Shown here: piece by piece, positions 1 to 26,444 of the stretch | How positions within the stretch are numbered: position 1 is the stretch's first letter | Layout: each line of letters opens with the position of its first letter | NCBI GenBank assembly: GCA_029262035.1 | Contig: JAJDAE010000116.1 | Location: 1 to 33,202 of the forward strand | Reading direction: 5' to 3' | Length of the DNA stretch: 33,202 bases | Source of the DNA: Candidatus Zhuqueibacterota bacterium | GTDB lineage: Bacteria; Zhuqueibacterota; Zhuqueibacteria; Oceanimicrobiales; Oceanimicrobiaceae | The notes under the pieces: generated by a model | Database searches by the model: none | What the model saw: the letters and a program-made list of their open reading frames with translations, nothing else | Told to the model about the DNA's origin: nothing | Position numbers and translations under genes: made by a program

Positions 1-1111
1 GAAAGATAACTATAATGGGTCTACTGTTCTTTTTACTTTTTGCAAACACCCTCGCTGCCCCCAATAATACAGTTGTTCCGGAGGCATTATCATCAGCGCC
101 GTTATAAATCAACTCTCCTCTAATGCCAAGATGATCATAATGTGCACCCAATGATACAAATTCATTCTTTAAGCCCGAATCATTTCCTTCAATCACTCCG
201 ATGACATTTCGTGTTTTTTTAGTTTCTCGCATCACCTTAAGGTTGTACTTGACCTGATGATCTAATTCAAAGTAAGGCGGCGTTTCATTCGAATTCAACA
301 AGCTCACTAATTGTTCATAGTTGTATTTTTCACTTTCCAAAAATTCTCTTGCAGATTCTTTGTTCAAAATGAAGGCCGGAATGTTTTTAACTTCGCTTAG
401 CGTATCACTTTGTTCCCTCGTATATTCAAAAAAAGGGGATTGTGAAGTCCATCGGAATAAATCCCAGTTACAAGTTACGTTCCCGTCCGGAATAAATAAA
501 ACTCCGGTTGCCCCCTTGGATTTTGCAATCGATATCTTTCCGGAAAGTTTGGCATAATATGCCTTTATGTTGCCCTCAAAGAAATCGTTCTGGCTATTCG
601 GCGCTTCGGAGAAAATTAAAACCGTTTTACCATTTACATCCAAGTTTACATAATCATCATGATTATTATCTGATCTACCATCACCAACGAAAACAATATG
701 AGAGGAATCCGAAACATAGATAGAATCTGAATACTCACCCGAAATACTAATAAAATCTTCGACAAAATCAAACGTCAATTCTCTTGTGCTGTCCGACTTT
801 AATAATGAGATCTGAGAATCGATTCCGTAGTAGGTTAATTTCAGATCAAAATATTGGAAATAAGTTCCGTCGTTTCCATACGGCTGAACGCCATATTTTT
901 GCAGTTCTTTCGCGATATAAAGAGAAGCTAATTTTTCTCCCCTGGTGGTGGCTTCACGACCCTCCAATTCATCTGACGCTAAAAACTCTAAGTTGGATTT
1001 TATATAATTCAAGTTAGAAAGTCGATCTTCCGAAGGCGATCCTATTTTGTTTGCAACGCCACAACTTACAAAAAATGCTATCATTATTAAAGAAAAGAAG
1101 GTGTTTTTCAT
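1..1111 (-). CDS. M28-family metallopeptidase, predicted lipoprotein (3' end outside window)
   Basis: The reading frame is open from the ATG at 1111 to the left edge, 370 codons with no stop. A short signal peptide ends in a lipobox-like FVSC, so it is probably an exported lipoprotein. The N-terminal block around LASDELEGREATTRGEK is typical of M28 aminopeptidases. The middle (roughly residues 130-250) looks like a protease-associated (PA) insert. The M28 zinc signature follows: HYDHLG with His324 and Asp326, and GADDNASG with Asp340/Asp341. The remaining zinc ligands and catalytic Glu would lie beyond the window. A GGAG sits 8 nt before the ATG. The gene begins 16 bp after the beta-barrel gene and is likely the last visible member of that operon. 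The substrate cannot be deduced; the family mostly removes N-terminal amino acids. Confidence 0.88.
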   Translation of the reverse strand, partial: MKNTFFSLIMIAFFVSCGVANKIGSPSEDRLSNLNYIKSNLEFLASDELEGREATTRGEKLASLYIAKELQKYGVQPYGNDGTYFQYFDLKLTYYGIDSQISLLKSDSTRELTFDFVEDFISISGEYSDSIYVSDSSHIVFVGDGRSDNNHDDYVNLDVNGKTVLIFSEAPNSQNDFFEGNIKAYYAKLSGKISIAKSKGATGVLFIPDGNVTCNWDLFRWTSQSPFFEYTREQSDTLSEVKNIPAFILNKESAREFLESEKYNYEQLVSLLNSNETPPYFELDHQVKYNLKVMRETKKTRNVIGVIEGNDSGLKNEFVSLGAHYDHLGIRGELIYNGADDNASGTTVLLGAARVFAKSKKNSRPIIVIF

Positions 1112-1127
1112 TTCATGCTCTCCAAGA

Positions 1128-2411
1128 TTAGAATGACAATCTTAACCCTAGCTCTAAAGAGCTCTTGGTAAACAACATACCAAACTCAGAATCTTCCCGC
1201 CCCCCGAAGTAAGAAGCGCGAATCCAACCGTTTAAATGCGAATTAAAATAATAGTTGAAAGTTGGTATCAAAATTCCGCTGCTATCAACAAGGTTTCCGA
1301 AAAGAATGAGCTCCAGCCCGAATTTTTGTTTGGGTAGATAACCACGAATGAAACCATAATGCCGCATGGTGCCATCGGGACTGAGCGTGTTGAGCGCATT
1401 GTAAAACTCAGGGAAAGACGCGCCATTGGGCGGAAGCTGGCGAATCTGTTTTTGATGAAAAAGTGTAAACCGTCGCCACTGATTCCAATTAGTTCTAGTA
1501 AGTCCATCGCGATTATAAAAATATTCCGCCATCAAGTTCAAGCCGGAATCGAAAGTATACTGCATCCCCATTAAGAGCTTGTAGAAAAGCCGTTTGCTGG
1601 ATTGATATTTGGTTGTGTAGGGAAAATCACCGAAAAAGATTTGATCATCGCTGCTATCCAATACCTGGTGATAAAGTTTGTTACTGCCAACCTGGGCAAT
1701 GAACTCGGAGTGCAATTCAAGATGGTCACCATAAGTAAAGGCGGTGTTGAATCCAAATTTGATTTTCTCTTTTTCTTTCCAGTGACCAATTAAGGAGACA
1801 TCTACATCTTTGATAAATGAATAAAATTTCACCGCCAACTCATCATCTCCCAATCTGAATCGTCCTTTTGATTTTAGCTCGTTTGCGTAAACCAAAGTGA
1901 GAGAATGATTGCCCCAATAGGCATCAAGTGCGATAATGGGGCGACCCTGAAAGCGGTTCAAGCGATCAGAAGGGTCACCGGCATCTTTGGCGGGTTCAAC
2001 GACACCGGTAGGGTTGAAGGCAAAGCCGGTGCCCCATTTTAATATTTTACGGCCAACAGTTATTTGCACATGGTCTCCTAAGGGATGGCCAAAATAGAGT
2101 TCTCTCAAGGTGTATTCATAATTGGCGTCTTCAAGATCAGAAAAAATAGCATCTGTTTTGATGTCGAGAGTAAAAGCGCGCCAGTTTAAAAATAAATCTG
2201 CACTGGAAAGGCTGTTATAGCGTGGTTGTGGCACGAGTTCATTGTCAACATTTAAAGGTGTTGAATTCAATTGTTGAAATTGAGTTTCATGGATAGCGCT
2301 CAAGCGATATTTGAGTTTCCCATGATCGCCAAATGCTCCTTGCGGCCAGGCCAAAGATGAAATTAGCATTTGTCCGAAAACGAAAAAAATCAAAAAAGAT
2401 ATGGCTTTCAT
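1128..2411 (-). CDS. predicted outer-membrane beta-barrel protein
   Basis: A protein of 427 residues with a hydrophobic N-terminal signal peptide (about residues 1-23) and no later membrane helix. The rest has alternating hydrophobic/polar strands rich in aromatic residues, and the last residue is Phe (LELGLRLSF), the usual C-terminal signature of outer-membrane barrels. The region with GRKILKWGTGFAFNP and a conserved-looking NRFQGRP stretch recalls DUF1302/alginate-export-type porin-like barrels, but I cannot assign a named family. Its ATG overlaps the stop of the LolA-like gene (ATGA, 2408-2411), so the two are probably translationally coupled. With the upstream ABC transporter and LolA-like protein this suggests the outer-membrane end of a transport route. 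Barrel topology is well supported; the cargo is unknown. Confidence 0.75.
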   Translation of the reverse strand: MKAISFLIFFVFGQMLISSLAWPQGAFGDHGKLKYRLSAIHETQFQQLNSTPLNVDNELVPQPRYNSLSSADLFLNWRAFTLDIKTDAIFSDLEDANYEYTLRELYFGHPLGDHVQITVGRKILKWGTGFAFNPTGVVEPAKDAGDPSDRLNRFQGRPIIALDAYWGNHSLTLVYANELKSKGRFRLGDDELAVKFYSFIKDVDVSLIGHWKEKEKIKFGFNTAFTYGDHLELHSEFIAQVGSNKLYHQVLDSSDDQIFFGDFPYTTKYQSSKRLFYKLLMGMQYTFDSGLNLMAEYFYNRDGLTRTNWNQWRRFTLFHQKQIRQLPPNGASFPEFYNALNTLSPDGTMRHYGFIRGYLPKQKFGLELILFGNLVDSSGILIPTFNYYFNSHLNGWIRASYFGGREDSEFGMLFTKSSLELGLRLSF

Positions 2412-3136
2412 TTTAACTGAGTCAAATAATTCTTATTGAAATATTTTTCTGCTAACGTTTGGGGTTCATATTCGAGAAATTCCATAACCGTGTGGCTATT
2501 ATTGCGCAAACGGTCATGCAGCGTCATTTGCGTTAAGGTAAGACGATTATGAAACATTTTAAATTCATCATAGGTGACGGATTTATAATGTTTCCCGGAC
2601 GCAAGGTATAATTCAGCTTTAACGGGCAGCGACTCCGTCTTCGTTACCCAATATTCCACACGTTGATAAGTTGTTTTGTCATTAGATGCCGTTAACTCCA
2701 GCTTAAAGCATTTCCGGCCGCCAACGGTTTCTTCTCTCACGCTTGTCGCATTGTAATTTTCTGCAAAGGTGATATCCGCCACGTCGCCGTTGGAAGCCTC
2801 GCCCAATAGACGCTGTAACGGCGATATGCGTATAGGACGACGGGTGTTTGGGGCAAAAATCCACATGTTGTCATCCAACATCAGCAAATATTGCCCTTTC
2901 TGGTCCGGATCGAGAAATCGCACCAAACTTTTCTTATCGCCTTTCACCATCACTTCAAGATTTCTTGCATTTTTTTGTTTATCATTTTTGAAGCTTGTGA
3001 TCCGTATTCGCACAACAAAAGAGGGCCATGCATTACGATACTGATCTGAGGTTAGCAGGATTTGCGCTCCCTTATCTTCTGCAAAAAGTATTGTGCTAAC
3101 CAAAAACAATGCGCTTAATAAAAGTACTTTTTTCAT
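2408..3136 (-). CDS. LolA-like outer membrane lipoprotein-sorting protein
   Basis: I chose the ATG at 3136 (242 aa) because it gives a clean signal peptide (MKKVLLLSALFLVSTILFA) and has GTGAGG seven bases upstream; the frame extends to 3184 but that extension adds a non-signal-like tail. The mature part matches the 'outer membrane lipoprotein-sorting' LolA-like family: a run ending in RPIRISPLQRLLG, then GDVADITFAENY, then a C-terminal half with the pattern YWVTKTESLPVKAE. Such proteins form a half-open beta barrel that shields an acyl chain or lipid in the periplasm. It lies between the ABC permease (10 bp to the open frame, 57 bp to the chosen start) and the beta-barrel gene, which it overlaps by 4 bp. 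It probably ferries a lipid or lipoprotein from the transporter to the outer membrane; the cargo is inferred only. Confidence 0.85.
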   Translation of the reverse strand: MKKVLLLSALFLVSTILFAEDKGAQILLTSDQYRNAWPSFVVRIRITSFKNDKQKNARNLEVMVKGDKKSLVRFLDPDQKGQYLLMLDDNMWIFAPNTRRPIRISPLQRLLGEASNGDVADITFAENYNATSVREETVGGRKCFKLELTASNDKTTYQRVEYWVTKTESLPVKAELYLASGKHYKSVTYDEFKMFHNRLTLTQMTLHDRLRNNSHTVMEFLEYEPQTLAEKYFNKNYLTQLK

Positions 3137-3141
3137 GTTTG

Positions 3142-3147
3142 CCTCAC
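3142..3147 (-). promoter_or_regulatory. ribosome binding site fixing the LolA-like start
   Basis: GTGAGG on the minus strand, 5-7 bases before the ATG at 3136. It decides for the internal start, which leaves a normal signal peptide at the N terminus. Confidence 0.6.
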
Positions 3148-3193
3148 TTGTTTTAAATTTTAACCCGGCTTGCCTCGCTAACAATGCCAGCCA

Positions 3194-4423
3194 TTAAATA
3201 TGCCCCAACGCATCCACGATTTTCTTACGGGAAGCTTTGAATGCTGGAAATAACGTTGAAAGCACTGCAGTCAGAAGCATGAAGATAAATGTCCCCAGGT
3301 AAATTTTCCCTACATAATGAACATTCAAGGGAAATCCTGTGGTCGAGCCAGGCGGTGGCGGCATCATAATTCCCGATTGATTGATAACAAAAGATAGAAC
3401 TAAACTCAGCAATAACCCCGTTGCACTCGCCAGAAGTCCGATGACCAACCCTTCCATCAAAAAATTTGCTAAGACTCTTTTTTCGGAAGTGCCAATGGCC
3501 ATCAACGTACCAATTTCCTTCGTACGCTCAAAAATGGACATCATCATGGTGTTGGAAGTAGCAAGTAAAACAACAATAAATATCAGAATGCCCAGAAATG
3601 TAAAGATAGCGTTGTAGAGCTTAACGACTGCGCGGTAAAATGTGGCTAACTCATGCCACTTTTTAATTGCAAAGCCGCTGAGATGTTCAGAGAGTTGTGC
3701 TGCAACTTTGTCAGTTGAATCGGTTTCATTTAACACAACAATAATATTGGAGACACGTTCCGAGTTGAGAAGCGTCTGAGCAGTGGAAAGACTAACGCTC
3801 AAAAAACGCACATCCATTTCCGGAACACCCGTTGAAAAGATACCCACAACTTTCACATCCATAGCATTTAAAACACCGGTGGTCGTTGTGGTCATTAATG
3901 TCAGGTAGTCCCCGATCTCTGCTTTTAAAGATTTTGCCACACCTTTCGCGAGAATCACTTCGTCCTCATTTTGTGCAAAAATATCTTCGCCCAAGTGATG
4001 CCCAGACTCCATTGTCATGCTAAACCCTGTGAGTTTCTGCTCCTTTTCTGGATTTACGGCCCGTCCCATAAAGGCAACTGATTTATCACCATTGGAAATC
4101 AAACCCATAAAAGAGATCCGCGGCATGGCAAAACGCACTTCGTTCAATGTGCTGATAATTCTAATTAAGCTATCCGGACTTGATATGCCGTATTGTAACG
4201 GTATATCCTCATCTTTCTCTAAAGACTCGGGTTGAAAAACCTGCAAATGACCGTACCGGCCACGGATTGAAGTTTCGCTAAGACCCCAGAAAGAGTATTT
4301 GATAAAGCCGCCGGCAAGGATCAAAGCGATGCAGCCAAAAACCATAATCATGGATGTGATGAGTGTTCGCCTCATATTACGGGTTACATTCTTGAAGGCT
4401 AACTTTAGAAATTTTGTATTCAT
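3194..4423 (-). CDS. ABC transporter permease, FtsX/MacB type (LolCE-like)
   Basis: A 409-residue protein with the four-helix MacB/LolC topology. TM1 is at about 21-42, a large periplasmic domain spans 45-268, and three C-terminal TM segments lie near 272-296, 324-347 and 374-395. The FtsX-domain signature FERTKEIGTLMAIG (298-311) follows TM2 and the protein ends with the usual FPAFKASRKKIVDALGHI. MacB-type transporters do not move substrate through the membrane but use ATP to pull lipoproteins or other cargo from the periplasmic side (mechanotransmission). GGGAG precedes the ATG. It follows the ATPase gene after 56 bp and precedes the LolA-like gene. Only one permease is present, so a homodimer (LolF-like) is likely. 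LolC/LolE identity proper is not proven. Confidence 0.9.
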   Translation of the reverse strand: MNTKFLKLAFKNVTRNMRRTLITSMIMVFGCIALILAGGFIKYSFWGLSETSIRGRYGHLQVFQPESLEKDEDIPLQYGISSPDSLIRIISTLNEVRFAMPRISFMGLISNGDKSVAFMGRAVNPEKEQKLTGFSMTMESGHHLGEDIFAQNEDEVILAKGVAKSLKAEIGDYLTLMTTTTTGVLNAMDVKVVGIFSTGVPEMDVRFLSVSLSTAQTLLNSERVSNIIVVLNETDSTDKVAAQLSEHLSGFAIKKWHELATFYRAVVKLYNAIFTFLGILIFIVVLLATSNTMMMSIFERTKEIGTLMAIGTSEKRVLANFLMEGLVIGLLASATGLLLSLVLSFVINQSGIMMPPPPGSTTGFPLNVHYVGKIYLGTFIFMLLTAVLSTLFPAFKASRKKIVDALGHI

Positions 4424-4479
4424 AATAACTCCCTATTAGGCACTATCTATAAATTTCACATTGCGAAAGATGATCCATG

Positions 4480-5154
4480 TTAATTAACGAGCTTTCCATC
4501 TCGAATACTTACAACACGTTTAGCGATCTTAACGATTTGTGGATCATGAGTTGAGAAAATGAATGAAACGTTTTCTTCCTGATTTAATTTTGCCATCAAC
4601 TGCAGAATATCCTGGGCAGTTTGCAAGTCGAGATTTGCAGAAGGTTCATCTGCCAGGACGATCTTAGGCTGATGCACCAAGGCTCTGGCAATGGCGACAC
4701 GCTGACGCTGGCCGCCGGAAAGTTCACGAGGTTTGTGCGTACGCATAGATAATATTCCGACTTCATCAAGCATTTCTTCTACCCGCTTTTTACGCTGCTG
4801 TGCCGACATTTTTGTCAACAATAATGGATATTCCACATTCTCAAAAGCGTTGAGAACAGGTATAAGATTAAATGACTGAAAGATGAAACCAATTTTCGCC
4901 TGTCGAAGACGATGCAGTTTTGACTGGCCGTTATAGGTTATAACATTCTCTTCAAAACGAATCGTCCCGGAGGTAGGCTTGTCAATCAGTCCAATGAGAT
5001 TGAGAAGGGTGGTCTTACCACTTCCGGAAGGGCCGGAGATAGCGACAAATTCGCCTTCTGTAATATTTAGATTGATATTTTTAAGCGCAGGAATCAAAAC
5101 CTTTCCCAGCGAATAAGTTTTGCAGATATTTTCAAATTCGATTCTTTTTTTCAT
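4480..5154 (-). CDS. ABC transporter ATP-binding protein, LolD/MacB type
   Basis: All ABC-ATPase motifs are present (numbering from the ATG at 5154, 224 aa): Walker A GPSGSGKT (41-48), Q-loop region GFIFQSFNLIPVL, signature LSGGQRQRVAIARAL (from 145), Walker B IVLADEP (165-171), and H-loop STHD with His203. The sequence FNLIPVLNAFENVEYPLLL is typical of the LolD/MacB/FtsE subfamily. The frame can be extended to a TTG at 5166, but the ATG at 5154 gives the standard N terminus (MKKRIEFENICKTY). It starts 13 bases after the TPR gene ends and is followed by its permease, so the two almost certainly form one transporter. Confidence 0.92.
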   Translation of the reverse strand: MKKRIEFENICKTYSLGKVLIPALKNINLNITEGEFVAISGPSGSGKTTLLNLIGLIDKPTSGTIRFEENVITYNGQSKLHRLRQAKIGFIFQSFNLIPVLNAFENVEYPLLLTKMSAQQRKKRVEEMLDEVGILSMRTHKPRELSGGQRQRVAIARALVHQPKIVLADEPSANLDLQTAQDILQLMAKLNQEENVSFIFSTHDPQIVKIAKRVVSIRDGKLVN

Positions 5155-5167
5155 GATTAAATCCAAA

Positions 5168-5818
5168 TTAGTTTGAATTTTTGTAAGAAGTTACTTTTGC
5201 AGTGGCTTTTTCCGCCCAACTGGATTCCGGGGCAATTTGCATGGCGAGTTCAAATCTTTTGATCGCTTCTTGCTCGTTTTTATCTTTCTCTAAAGCCAAC
5301 CCGAAATTATAATGAACCATCGACTGCTCTTGCAATGGCCAGTGCTGAAATTTATTACTGTGAATGATGTAGTTGAAATCCTTCAGGCTATATTGTAAGC
5401 GATGGAACATTGAAGGTAAATTCATGCTATTCGTAGCACGAACAATGCGCACCATCAAATCATCAGGCGTCATATCAACAGCTTTATCCAATTTGTCTAC
5501 CCCCGTTTCCACATTACTCATTTTGTTCCATGGTAAAAGTGCGTCCCGACCTTTCAGAGTATATACACTACCCAAATAAGCCAGAGCCAAACTATTCTCT
5601 TTTTCTAATTCAAGCGCTTGATTCAGCAGTTTTTCGCTTTTCCCCACGGCTTTTTTATCGCCAGCTATGCCTTGGTCATGATATACTATTGCAAGATTGA
5701 CCAATACCTCAACATTCTGAGGATCCGCCTTTAGTTGCTCTTGTAATGAATGAAGATTATCCTGAGCAAAGGTGCCCGCAAAAGCTAACAATAGACAAGT
5801 AAATACTAAGTGTTTCAT
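5168..5818 (-). CDS. exported TPR-repeat protein
   Basis: The 216-residue product begins with a signal peptide (MKHLVFTCLLLAFAGTFAQ), so it is probably periplasmic. TPR-like helix pairs are visible near residues 25-60 (ADPQNVEVLVNLAIVYHDQG), 65-95 (NSLALAYLGSVYTLKG) and 165-205 (VHYNFGLALEKDKNEQEAIKRFELAMQIAP). TPRs are protein-protein docking surfaces. An AGGAGG precedes the ATG at a good distance, and this is the first gene of the minus-strand operon that continues with the ABC ATPase. A role as scaffold or accessory factor of that transporter is inferred from position only. Confidence 0.8.
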   Translation of the reverse strand: MKHLVFTCLLLAFAGTFAQDNLHSLQEQLKADPQNVEVLVNLAIVYHDQGIAGDKKAVGKSEKLLNQALELEKENSLALAYLGSVYTLKGRDALLPWNKMSNVETGVDKLDKAVDMTPDDLMVRIVRATNSMNLPSMFHRLQYSLKDFNYIIHSNKFQHWPLQEQSMVHYNFGLALEKDKNEQEAIKRFELAMQIAPESSWAEKATAKVTSYKNSN

Positions 5819-6363
5819 AACAGCCTCCTAACGTTCGTACATGAATTTTTTGTTTTACACGAATAATATACGAGGGAGTTGCTCGAAAAAAATACTTAGC
5901 CGATGGACGGTTGAATTAGAAGGATGGGTGGTATATTTAGCGGTTGGGTAGTATGTACCTTCAGACCATGCCTAACTGGAGTTTCGAAATAGCAAAATGT
6001 TAAAAAATAATACCAAACCACGAAAAAAATTAAAATGTTATCACACACCTGGTCATTCGCACAAATTGACTTTTTCGCGCTATCATCGCTTTGGTTATCT
6101 AAAAGACGCGACCAGTTGTTTGCATTTAACGATTTATTATGAATTCGGATAAACTATTAAACTCGAATCCAGAAATTTCCGGATTCGTAAGGCTTTTTAT
6201 TATCCAACTTTTGCTACCCCATATACTATCCAAAACAAAAATTAATTTCCCCGAAAGGTGGGTTGACTAAAACTAAAAATTTAACTATATATATTTTGAA
6301 AGTTATTTATATCTCAAAGCAAAAGCTTTTACAAGCTCGTTAAAGAGTGGAGGATTTTAAAAC
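5819..6363. other. intergenic region between divergent operons
   Basis: About 545 bp without a convincing gene, separating the leftward envelope operon from the rightward nfuA. The leftward operon must be driven from the left part (AT-rich, around 5840-5880). The right part holds the nfuA promoter. A 7-bp hairpin (CGAATCC at 6164-6170 pairing with GGATTCG at 6181-6187) is followed by CTTTTTATT and looks terminator-like on the plus strand, although no plus-strand gene ends before it. Confidence 0.5.
6263..6291 (+). promoter_or_regulatory. sigma70-like promoter for nfuA
   Basis: TTGACT (6263-6268), a 17-base spacer, and TATATA (6286-6291), ahead of the ATG at 6364. Both boxes are close to the housekeeping consensus and the spacing is optimal. 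FCB-group bacteria can use divergent promoter rules, so the call is moderate. Confidence 0.5.
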
Positions 6364-7661: not shown

Positions 7662-8593
7662 TGCAGCTCCTTAAATTTTTTGCCTTGATATATTCCATTC
7701 GCGAGCATTTTTTGCTGGATCGCATAAAGAATTTCCGCAGCGCTTTTACTTCCACACCATTGTGGTTCGATGAGCAGATGTTTTGGGGCGTCACCATACA
7801 GCCGCTCAATCTTGAATTCCGGGTTTAACTTTTCAACGATGTCGCATACAAAACTGACCCATTCCTCAAAATCATAAACATGAAACGGGTTTTCCTTGAA
7901 TTGTCTGGCCAGCTCGGTGTAACGCACAATATGCAAATTATGTAGCTTGATGAAATCAAGAGGAAGCTTAGAAACTTCGTCCGTAGTTTGCAGCATCTGT
8001 TCCCGGGTCTCATTTGGAAAACCGTAAATCACATGGCCGCAAATATAAATCCCACGATTGGCTGTTCGGGAGATGCCATCAACAGTGCAGGCATAATCAT
8101 GTCCCCGATTGATAATTCGCAGGGTTTCGTCAAAGCAGGATTCAATGCCATACTCGATTGTGACAAAGTAATCTCTCGCTAGTTGCTCGAAATAATCAAG
8201 CTTCGCGTCATCGATACAGTCAGCACGAGTACCGATGGAAAGACCGACAACCTCCGGGTGTTCCAGCGCCTGCCCATACAAGTCCTGAAGCTCTGAAAGT
8301 GAAGCATACGTATTTGAATAAGGCTGAAAATAAGCGATAAAAGCTTTAGATTTGAATCGATGCTTTAAGAAATCTATACTGCTTGCGACCTGTTCCCGAA
8401 TTGGGATTCTTGCACGGGCGGCTTCCGGGGTAAAGCTGTCAATATTACAGTATGTGCAGCCACCTTGTGCAACTGTGCCGTCGCGGTTGGGGCATGTAAA
8501 CCCGGCGTTTATGGGAATTTTATGAACCCGATGTCCGAATTTCTCTTGTAAAAATACGCCGTATGAATTGAATGAATTACTAAAATCCGTCAT
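7646..8593 (-). CDS. TIGR01212-family radical SAM protein (YhcC-like)
   Basis: A 315-residue radical SAM protein. The cluster motif is the distinctive long-spaced form of this family, CPNRDGTVAQGGCTYCN, with Cys34, Cys46 and Cys49 binding a [4Fe-4S] cluster that cleaves S-adenosylmethionine. Further family blocks are GLSIGTRADCI, EYGIES and HVIYGFPNETREQM, and the length matches E. coli YhcC (about 309 aa). Members are linked to tRNA or other RNA modification, but the reaction is not something I can read here. It follows the DJ-1-like gene after 16 bp and overlaps the downstream small gene by 16 bp. No clear Shine-Dalgarno precedes the ATG, so it may depend on read-through translation. Confidence 0.9.
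   Translation of the reverse strand: MTDFSNSFNSYGVFLQEKFGHRVHKIPINAGFTCPNRDGTVAQGGCTYCNIDSFTPEAARARIPIREQVASSIDFLKHRFKSKAFIAYFQPYSNTYASLSELQDLYGQALEHPEVVGLSIGTRADCIDDAKLDYFEQLARDYFVTIEYGIESCFDETLRIINRGHDYACTVDGISRTANRGIYICGHVIYGFPNETREQMLQTTDEVSKLPLDFIKLHNLHIVRYTELARQFKENPFHVYDFEEWVSFVCDIVEKLNPEFKIERLYGDAPKHLLIEPQWCGSKSAAEILYAIQQKMLANGIYQGKKFKELQCKIN
7667..7672 (-). promoter_or_regulatory. strong ribosome binding site of the 41-codon gene
   Basis: AAGGAG on the minus strand, five bases from the ATG at 7661, located inside the 3' end of the radical SAM gene. It is the main evidence that the small frame is translated. Confidence 0.6.
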
Positions 8594-8609
8594 CAGTCAG
8601 GAGGTATCA

Positions 8610-9116
8610 TTAAATCGCAGCTACCACTGCTTCAGCAAATTCCTTCGCAGAATTAGCGCCGGTGCTGGTAATAATGTTACCTGATTTTTCAATTTTTTTG
8701 CCTGTGTAATTTGCACCGGCCACTTGCAACTTTTCATAAACGGCAACATGGCTGGTAGCATTCTTGCCGTGCAGTATTCCGGCAACTGCCAAAGTTACAG
8801 CCGCGTGAGAACTTGCCGCTACGGTTTTCCCGTTGCTATCAATGGTTTTGGCGATATCGTGTGCTTTCACATCATGCCAGTATTGACTTGCCCCAGGTCC
8901 GCCAATAAAGATCACTGCATCAAAATCATCCGGCGAGATATCATCGATCAAAGAATTTGGATCCAACTTCATACCCTGAGATCCTGCGGCATCTTTAGTA
9001 ACAGTGGATGCAACGGTTATTTTGTGATTTTTGCTATCAAGCGATTTTCTTACAGACAAATATTCTTCATCACGGAAATTATTGTGAGCCAAAACAATCA
9101 AAACATTTTTTGACAT
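8610..9116 (-). CDS. DJ-1/PfpI-family protein lacking the usual nucleophile cysteine
   Basis: 168 residues with the DJ-1/PfpI flavodoxin-like fold: MSKNVLIVLAHNNFRDEEY at the N terminus (with the conserved Glu near 17-18), FDAVIFIGGPGAS (65-77), and a nucleophile-elbow region around 98-115. The family normally has A-x-C-H/A-G there; here it reads VAASSHAAVTLAVAGIL, so the catalytic cysteine is Ser103. There is no cysteine at all in the protein. Standard glyoxalase/deglycase or peptidase chemistry is therefore doubtful, and a binding or sensing role is possible. GAGGAG precedes the ATG. It lies between the ferredoxin and radical SAM genes in the same orientation. Confidence 0.85.
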   Translation of the reverse strand: MSKNVLIVLAHNNFRDEEYLSVRKSLDSKNHKITVASTVTKDAAGSQGMKLDPNSLIDDISPDDFDAVIFIGGPGASQYWHDVKAHDIAKTIDSNGKTVAASSHAAVTLAVAGILHGKNATSHVAVYEKLQVAGANYTGKKIEKSGNIITSTGANSAKEFAEAVVAAI

Positions 9117-9142
9117 TAATTGGTTCTCCTCTTTGAATTAAA

Positions 9143-9460
9143 TTACTCAGCATGGTGATAAAGTAAACGTTCTACAGGTTTATTTTTTAGTATATGATTT
9201 TCTACAATTTCGTTTACATCTGCTTCTGTCACCCCTTTGTACCAGATACCTTCAGGGTACACGACGATAGTGGGGCCTTCTTCACAGGGTCCCAAACAGG
9301 TGCTGCCCGTTACTTTTATTTCACCTTTTAAACCTCTTTTCTCAACTTCATCCTTGAGTGCGGCATAAATCTGGTTACCATTTTGCGGTCCGCAAGAGAC
9401 TTTCGCAAATGGCGGGCGCTGGTTTATACAAACAAAATAATGTTGACGATATTTACTCAT
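9143..9460 (-). CDS. thioredoxin-like [2Fe-2S] ferredoxin (Shethna type)
   Basis: 105 residues. The cysteine pattern is that of thioredoxin-fold 2Fe-2S ferredoxins: Cys11 (HYFVCINQRP), Cys23 (KVSCGPQNG), Cys55 and Cys59 (GSTCLGPCEEGP), followed by IVVYPEGIWYKGVTEADVNE, the usual end of the family. It is a soluble one-electron carrier of the cytoplasm. Its ATG overlaps the stop of moaE (ATGA at 9457-9460), so the two are translationally coupled. The partner could be a molybdoenzyme or a nearby Fe-S enzyme; the sequence does not say which. Confidence 0.92.
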   Translation of the reverse strand: MSKYRQHYFVCINQRPPFAKVSCGPQNGNQIYAALKDEVEKRGLKGEIKVTGSTCLGPCEEGPTIVVYPEGIWYKGVTEADVNEIVENHILKNKPVERLLYHHAE

Positions 9461-25086: not shown

Positions 25087-25151
25087 GGCGATTTGCAGTT
25101 TTCGTTCAATCACTAAATAATTGGATTTAATTGAAGGATATTATCAAAAAC

Positions 25152-25157
25152 GAGAGG
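25152..25157 (+). promoter_or_regulatory. ribosome binding site of the secreted protein
   Basis: GAGAGG six bases before the ATG at 25164. It supports this start over the in-frame TTG at 25131, and the ATG leads directly into a signal peptide. Confidence 0.6.
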
Positions 25158-25163
25158 TTCATT

Positions 25164-26444
25164 ATGAAGCTAAAAAATTTATTCATGTTTTTGGTTTTTA
25201 GCTGTGTGCTCTTTACTGTTAGAGCCGGGCTTTCGCAAAGCCCCACAGATGAAAACACTTTCTCAAAGGTTGGTGGTTTTAAACTAATCGATGGTGGCTA
25301 TGGCATATTTGGCGCCGCCGCTCATGTCAACAAAGATGCAACTTTTACTGATTATGTGCCTTACTATGCAAATTTTGCTTTATGGGTTGGCGCGACCAAC
25401 GCAAAAGGAGAAGTCAGGGTTACGGCCGGAACCGGCAATGCGATTACGTCAAGACCGGAATGGGGGCCAGACGCTAAAACCGTAAATGAAAACGCCTCTT
25501 TTCAGCAGGTAGAAAAGGTAGTTGCAACGACTTATTCTGATGCAGCTGTATTCGATGGTCATCAGCCAATGGGACTATCTGTGATACAGGAACAATATGG
25601 ATTTGTTAACACAAGGTTTGCAGTTATTGCCTTTACAATTTCACTGAATGAAAATGCGGAGCCTTTAGAAAATGTATATCTCGGTTTGTTTGGAGATATT
25701 GATGCAACCAACAATAATGAGTTATCCTCAACTGATGATAATATCGATTTTGCTGCCAAAGGCGCAGCGCCATTTATTTACGACAGCAAAGTTGAAGGAA
25801 CTGAAATTCCTCTTTTGGGCGCGAAAATATTAGGCGTTAACAAGCCTAACATCGCCTGGTGGCAGGCCGAAAATGCGCCTAAATCCGACGCCGAGCAATA
25901 TAGTTACCTTACAGGACGCGCTGCCACGCAAGAACCAACCCAACCCGGTGATTATCAATTTCTTTTGAGTTTTGGCCCGCTCAGCCTCAGCCCGGGTGAA
26001 ACCGTGCAATTCCCTGTAGCCGTGGCGCAGGCGCCACAACTTTCTGATTTTGAAGATAGTTTGGTAGACGCCGAAGAATTTTACTTAGAAGAATTAGGAG
26101 GCGCTGTTTTAAAGAAAAATACCCAAAGAACCGAGTTACAGACTGAAACTTCCGGTTCGTTGCCGGACATATTCAGCCTGGAGCAGAACTTCCCTAATCC
26201 GTTCAATCCCGATACCCAAATTCAGTTTGCCTTGCCAAAAGCCAACCATGTTCAAATCCGCATTTACAACACGCTGGGGCAAGTGGTAAGGACGCTGGTA
26301 GATGACCATTATCCAACCGGTACATTCCATGTTACCTGGAACAGCAAGAACGACGCCAACCAGCAGTTACCGAGCGGTGTTTATTTCTACCATCTCCAAG
26401 CCGGTGATTTTCAGGCGCAGCGTAAGCTTTTGCTTTTGAAATAA
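25164..26444 (+). CDS. secreted protein with type IX-like (FlgD-fold) C-terminal sorting domain
   Basis: 426 residues. A signal peptide (MKLKNLFMFLVFSCVLFTV) is followed by a beta-rich body (to about residue 320) that I do not recognise; it contains Asp/Asn-rich GDIDATNNNELSSTDDN. The last 85 residues are a type A C-terminal domain: SLEQNFPNPFNPDTQIQF, then LPKANHVQIRIYNTLGQVVR, then LPSGVYFYHLQAGDFQAQRK. In Bacteroidota and relatives this domain directs export by the type IX secretion system and attachment to the cell surface; in KSB1-like lineages it has a FlgD-like fold and the route is less studied. A PorV/PorQ-family gene nearby fits. The body could bind a ligand, but no function can be read. 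Confidence 0.85.
   Translation: MKLKNLFMFLVFSCVLFTVRAGLSQSPTDENTFSKVGGFKLIDGGYGIFGAAAHVNKDATFTDYVPYYANFALWVGATNAKGEVRVTAGTGNAITSRPEWGPDAKTVNENASFQQVEKVVATTYSDAAVFDGHQPMGLSVIQEQYGFVNTRFAVIAFTISLNENAEPLENVYLGLFGDIDATNNNELSSTDDNIDFAAKGAAPFIYDSKVEGTEIPLLGAKILGVNKPNIAWWQAENAPKSDAEQYSYLTGRAATQEPTQPGDYQFLLSFGPLSLSPGETVQFPVAVAQAPQLSDFEDSLVDAEEFYLEELGGAVLKKNTQRTELQTETSGSLPDIFSLEQNFPNPFNPDTQIQFALPKANHVQIRIYNTLGQVVRTLVDDHYPTGTFHVTWNSKNDANQQLPSGVYFYHLQAGDFQAQRKLLLLK

Follow-up and report, generated by a model that had tools for sequence, protein, structure and literature searches.

Results

Organisation of the operon

The stretch of DNA analysed here, called the window (33,202 nucleotides), is the entire contig C20 of a 5.3 Mb genome that lies in 372 contigs and is 96% complete. 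Among named relatives, a 'candidate division KSB1' MAG is the closest. Six genes stand head to tail on the minus strand. Their order from 5' to 3' is TPR protein, ATPase, permease, LolA_like, barrel and M28 peptidase, and the intergenic gaps from the TPR gene to the M28 gene are 1, 56, 57, –4 and 16 bp. Such a row of six minus-strand genes had been claimed by the first-pass annotation, and both the open reading frames and the Pfam families agree with it. Rfam gave no RNA features in the window.

The first gene (5168..5818, minus strand) encodes a secreted protein of 216 aa with Pfam TPR matches, whose signal peptide was judged by eye. Its homologues occupy the same operon position on an E. coli plasmid (BLASTP E 3e-23), in the genomes G075 and G076, and in Vibrio. 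The protein probably acts in the periplasm, as a scaffold or chaperone for the cassette. The second gene (4480..5166, minus strand) encodes a LolD/MacB-type ATPase (ABC_tran, 125 bits), for which an ATG near 5154 is a likelier start than the called TTG. Its best NCBIfam model is LolD with 237.1 bits, under the cutoff of 307.75. The third gene (3194..4423, minus strand) encodes a type VII (FtsX/MacB_PCD) permease that is LolE/LolF-like. Its Pfam scores for FtsX (69 bits) and MacB_PCD (59 bits) are both over cutoff, and the NCBIfam lolCE model gave 113.3 bits against a cutoff of 362.45. Permease and ATPase are thus both below the NCBIfam cutoffs for a canonical LolCDE. The PDB matches of the permease are LolE (2.6e-21), LolF (5e-15) and MacB (5e-10), and there is also similarity to YtrF. 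With its FtsX and MacB_PCD domains, four membrane helices (four hydrophobic regions by hydropathy) and a LolD/MacB-type ATPase, the pair belongs to the type VII ABC (MacB/Lol/FtsX) superfamily. Because the operon holds one permease copy, the permease probably works as a homodimer.

The fourth gene (2408..3136, minus strand) encodes a LolA_like (PF17131) periplasmic carrier with a signal peptide. It starts at the ATG at 3136 and not at the listed TTG at 3184, which gives 'MKKVLLLSALFLVSTILFAEDK'. Its membership of PF17131 is clear (164 bits; cutoff 30) and it has the LolA fold. The AlphaFold2 model reached a pLDDT of 90.8, and Foldseek returned 3buu (TM 0.79/0.85), 4z48 (DUF1329), 3bk5 and P. 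gingivalis LolA3 (9tp6). The fifth gene (1128..2411, minus strand) encodes an outer-membrane beta-barrel of about 17 predicted strands with the conserved motif GRxxxxWGxGxxxNP. It had no significant match in Pfam, and DUF1302 was not matched. The AlphaFold2 model behind this strand count is of moderate confidence (pTM 0.75, pLDDT 76), and Foldseek found AlgE, Occ channels and porins at a TM of about 0.5. Model and Foldseek matches together are enough for calling it a barrel and too little for assigning a mechanism.

The last gene (2..1111, minus strand) encodes a peptidase with PA and M28 domains (Peptidase_M28, 51 bits) whose C-terminus is lost at the contig end. Because the window is a whole contig, this truncation is due to the assembly and not to nature. 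The C-terminal part had no separate close match elsewhere in the genome, and a full copy of 519 aa, 65% identical, is present in the nearest relative, G002. The N-terminus bears a lipobox-like FVSC, so that the protein may be a lipoprotein. The peptidase had been proposed as a further member of the system. However, among the loci examined only the window and G002 carry it in the operon, which rules it out as a core part. It is a lineage-specific passenger, a local addition to the operon.

Lol genes and related cassettes in the same genome

A separate lolCE gene lies on contig C295. It scores 383 bits, over the cutoff of 362, has its own ATPase and adjoins a lysS-like gene. A profile search of the genome for PF03548 and PF16584 LolA found none. 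Of the canonical lolCDE-lolA set that the first-pass annotation had suggested looking for elsewhere in the genome, lolCE with an ATPase is therefore present, and a LolA of either family was not found.

The genome has four PF17131 genes, in the window and on C330, C349 and C47. C330 carries ATPase, permease, LolA_like and barrel, with a TetR-type gene adjoining (by eye). C349, a cut contig, carries a TetR-type gene (by eye), LolA_like and permease. C47 carries LolA_like, barrel and RND, the only RND cassette among the paralogues of this genome. In addition, C274 has permease, ATPase and barrel. Three barrels were detected in the whole genome with a profile built mostly from ABC-linked barrels, and all of them adjoin ABC permeases.

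Conservation and exchange of the engine

Loci were gathered by similarity to LolA_like only, and the neighbours were then scored with purpose-built profiles. The 80 named loci come from KSB1, Ignavibacteriae, Acidobacteria, Gammaproteobacteria, Desulfobacterota, Neomarinimicrobiota, Cloacimonadota, Aminicenantes, Elusimicrobia, SAR324 and Betaproteobacteria. The count took in only those LolA_like genes that have 3 kb of sequence on either side. All 43 counted genes have an ABC permease and a barrel nearby on the same strand. The arrangement in the window is not a matter of chance, because of these counts (43/43 named loci). Among relatives of the same class, 42 of 43 such LolA_like genes stand with a barrel plus an engine, which is ABC in 25 cases, RND in 14 and both in 3. 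The quartet of ATPase, permease, LolA_like and barrel is kept across many phyla, so that the gene order holds well beyond close strains, and permease, LolA_like and barrel do co-occur in relatives. Most quartets stand alone; a Pfam tally of the flanking genes was dropped.

By hhalign, the ABC-linked and the RND-linked barrels are homologues (99.9%, E 1.2e-33), with negative controls under 1%. Two of the five RND-linked barrels scanned are over the cutoff of DUF1302, the family of AmeA. LolA_like and one barrel family thus occur with either ABC or RND. Therefore, carrier and barrel are the constant pair and the engine is exchangeable. This agrees with the earlier idea of an ABC-powered analogue of exporters that combine RND, a LolA-like protein and a DUF1302 barrel.

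A subfamily with a kinase–LytTR pair

The full operon of the subfamily to which the window belongs has seven genes, namely TPR, ATPase, permease, LolA_like, barrel, histidine kinase and LytTR. It is complete in three Vibrio and in G075 and G076, which are distant members of the phylum of the window. G004 shares the seven-gene order; its TPR gene is truncated or frameshifted where the contig begins. Plesiomonas, Parathalassolituus, G052 and a further Vibrio carry the part from ATPase to LytTR. A tree of 147 permeases places every one of the 17 with the specific TPR and/or the kinase–LytTR pair in one 23-member clade that includes the window. The support of this node is low (0.35). The 26-member clade around it, which also takes in Bdellovibrio and locus L168 and holds the Borrelia permeases, reaches 0.94. 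In G002, the closest relative, M28 is followed by the kinase and then by an apparent LytTR remnant that looks decayed (about 2900–3700 of locus L051). The same locus has a methyltransferase-like ORF (8574–9407) between permease and LolA_like.

An orthologous kinase was not found in the genome of the window, the best match being 36%, and no orthologue of the LytTR gene was found there. The absence is probably an assembly gap at the contig end; loss is the other possibility. LytTR regulation in this lineage is uncertain, because the genome gave no orthologous kinase and the LytTR gene of G002 looks decayed. A putative LytTR-type operator lies at 5902..5949 (minus strand), about 80–130 nt upstream of the TPR start. 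It consists of three repeats, ACCCAACCGC (5940–5949), ACCCATCCTT (5920–5929) and ACCGTCCATC (5902–5911), and this block is conserved in G002. The operons of Vibrio, Plesiomonas and G075 have two to three upstream repeats ACC[AG]TTC with a spacing of 20–21 bp. The consensus was built post hoc, after the sequences were known, and was tested by mononucleotide shuffle. The window, G002, Plesiomonas and three Vibrio gave a strong result and a fourth Vibrio a weak one, and G075, G076 and Parathalassolituus were individually not significant. These tandem repeats of about 20 bp resemble AlgR/LytTR sites.

Biosynthetic neighbourhoods

The cassette is found in a chromosomal island in 375 of 5426 genomes, about 7% of complete E. 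coli genomes. The island holds acpS, FabG-, FabZ- and ACP-like genes, two ketosynthases, an aminomethyltransferase-like gene and a malonyltransferase. At L201 (E. coli NZ_CP053259.1), L237 and L238 it appears as a conserved fatty-acid-type island with the exporter inside, and the E. coli site is near tRNA-Ser and ycdU. The UPEC serX paper was considered as an account of this island and set aside as irrelevant. Rahnella and Enterobacter have the cassette in a similar fatty-acid-type cluster. On two E. coli plasmids, a ketosynthase and an N-acyl amino acid synthase are followed by TPR, ATPase, permease, LolA_like and barrel. On one of them, NZ_CP060058.1 (L202), the ketosynthase, the N-acyl amino acid synthase (FeeM) and the full five-gene set stand between transposase genes. 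On a Paraburkholderia plasmid the quartet is flanked by very large SDR/P450 genes on one side and by a phosphopantetheinyl transferase on the other. Because these cassettes lie inside acyl biosynthetic clusters, the cargo in E. coli, Rahnella, Enterobacter and Paraburkholderia is likely acylated or polyketide-like, judging from the neighbouring genes. No biosynthetic genes adjoin the operon of the window or the annotated operons of Vibrio and Plesiomonas. By extension from the clusters elsewhere, a hydrophobic cargo would also be expected for the window.

Discussion

Comparison with known systems

The nearest published counterpart is Borrelia BBJ23-29, a purely bioinformatic proposal published in 2026 that holds essentially the same idea (PMC13078400). 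It groups TPR proteins, an ATPase, a permease and a LolA-like protein in a single cluster with an outer-membrane protein (PMC13078400). Its permease falls in the 26-member clade together with that of the window (0.94), and the alignment of BBJ28 to the LolA_like family reaches an hhalign E of 5e-5 (prob 67%). On the other hand, BBJ23-29 includes BBJ25 of the Omp85 family, and the operon of the window has no such gene. The similarity of BBJ29 to the barrel family is not significant (hhalign E 0.044, prob 1%), so that it is not established as a member. BBJ29 (L191:8008-9009) has the motif GRQNYYLGNG where the barrel family has GRxxxxWGxG. Overall, BBJ23-29 is likely a relative of the cassette. 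In Borreliella valaisiana lp28-8 (L198), BBJ26-29-like genes stand directly upstream of an annotated TOMM peptide biosynthesis cluster.

The experimentally tested RND version is AmeABCD of Castellaniella defragrans, where deletion of ameABCD lowered the tolerance to monoterpenes (PMC6394551). AmeABCD and P. putida PP_0765/0766 with PP_2018/2019 (PMC10866462) combine a DUF1302 barrel, a LolA-superfamily (DUF1329) protein and one inner-membrane engine. Their barrels are linked to that of the window through homologous RND-associated members. However, both systems have an RND (HAE3) engine where the window has an ABC engine, they include a COG4447 protein (AmeC), and they lack ABC, TPR and LytTR components. 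LolCDE-LolA-LolB and the homodimeric LolF share the passage from a type VII ABC permease to a LolA-fold carrier. In contrast to LolCDE, the window is far below the lolCE and LolD cutoffs, its barrel is not a LolB, and its carrier is PF17131 and not PF03548. The aryl polyene exporter ApeL-ApeM-ApeN, a proposed LolA-RND route, has a LolA-like carrier, a dedicated transporter and a fatty-acid-like cluster (PMC8253772), but its engine is an RND pump and a LolB-like protein takes the place of the barrel. YbbAP-TesA is a type VII ABC system with a proposed role in extracting hydrophobic compounds on behalf of a periplasmic partner; it differs in its hydrolase partner, in the ten-helix membrane fold of YbbP and in having no outer-membrane part (PMC12646458). 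Compared with MacAB-TolC, the cassette has no MacA adaptor or TolC partner, and its ATPase and permease are separate, not fused. In the openly searchable literature on PF17131, DUF1302/DUF1329, LolA3, LytTR and type VII ABC, no description of a general family matching the cassette was found.

Proposed mechanism and alternatives

We lean, with somewhat better than even confidence, towards a dedicated route in which ATP drives the export of a molecule that is acylated or hydrophobic in some other way. The ABC pair would pull the molecule out of the inner membrane; we infer both this direction and the nature of the cargo. The LolA_like carrier would take the acyl part into its groove, cross the periplasm and hand the cargo to the dedicated barrel, which would insert it into the outer membrane or release it. 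The TPR protein would be a periplasmic scaffold. In many members of the subfamily, the adjacent kinase–LytTR pair probably switches the operon on via the 20–21-bp repeats. A wider proposal, which we make tentatively and with a little less than even confidence, is an export family across many phyla with a fixed carrier and barrel and exchangeable ABC or RND engines. The window would belong to a subfamily with its own TPR protein and LytTR switch that exports acylated natural products at least in enterobacteria and Burkholderiales.

The cassette could instead carry lipoproteins, the possible cargo preferred by the authors of the Borrelia proposal (PMC13078400). The PDB matches of the permease, closest to LolE and LolF, the LolD model of the ATPase and the LolA-superfamily carrier fit this reading, as do the lack of a PF03548 or PF16584 LolA in the genome and the possible lipoprotein nature of M28. 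Nevertheless, the cassettes share no conserved lipoprotein gene, and the biosynthetic neighbours, where present, are acyl or polyketide enzymes. In addition, P. gingivalis LolA3 lacks the conserved Arg of LolA and binds LolB weakly (PMC13103446), and the tested RND relative exports small hydrophobics. Lipoproteins are therefore an unlikely cargo. Somewhat less likely again is a LytTR-induced defence or detoxification pump that rids the envelope of toxic hydrophobic compounds or of peptides. The similarity to MacB and YtrF, the adjacent histidine kinase and LytTR, the TetR-type neighbours of the paralogous cassettes (by eye) and the contribution of AmeABCD to monoterpene tolerance (PMC6394551) would suit such a pump. 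However, the cassette has no MacA-type adaptor or TolC partner, and several cassettes lie in biosynthetic clusters, which fits the export of an own product better. That the operon is simply the ordinary lolCDE-lolA of the genome is very improbable: the LolD/LolE similarity and the missing LolA, which might let the PF17131 protein serve the canonical LolCDE, stand against the C295 locus, whose lolCE over the curated cutoff and with an ATPase rules out a housekeeping role, and against a permease of only 113 bits and four PF17131 paralogues.

The dedicated export route, if true, would offer a common way, powered by ATP and ending at a defined point in the outer membrane, for lipids and hydrophobic metabolites other than LPS and lipoproteins to cross the periplasm. 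It would also assign a function to PF17131, the orphan LolA_like family with P. gingivalis LolA3 among its members, and to the DUF1302-related barrel family. New here are the cross-phylum extent, the exchange of engines, the biosynthetic context and a seven-gene operon that has a putative operator. Since about 7% of complete E. coli carry the cassette and Vibrio carry the full LytTR-linked operon, the genetics is tractable. Elsewhere in the window, positions 25131–26444 encode a secreted protein with a C-terminal domain of the type IX secretion cargo type (by eye).
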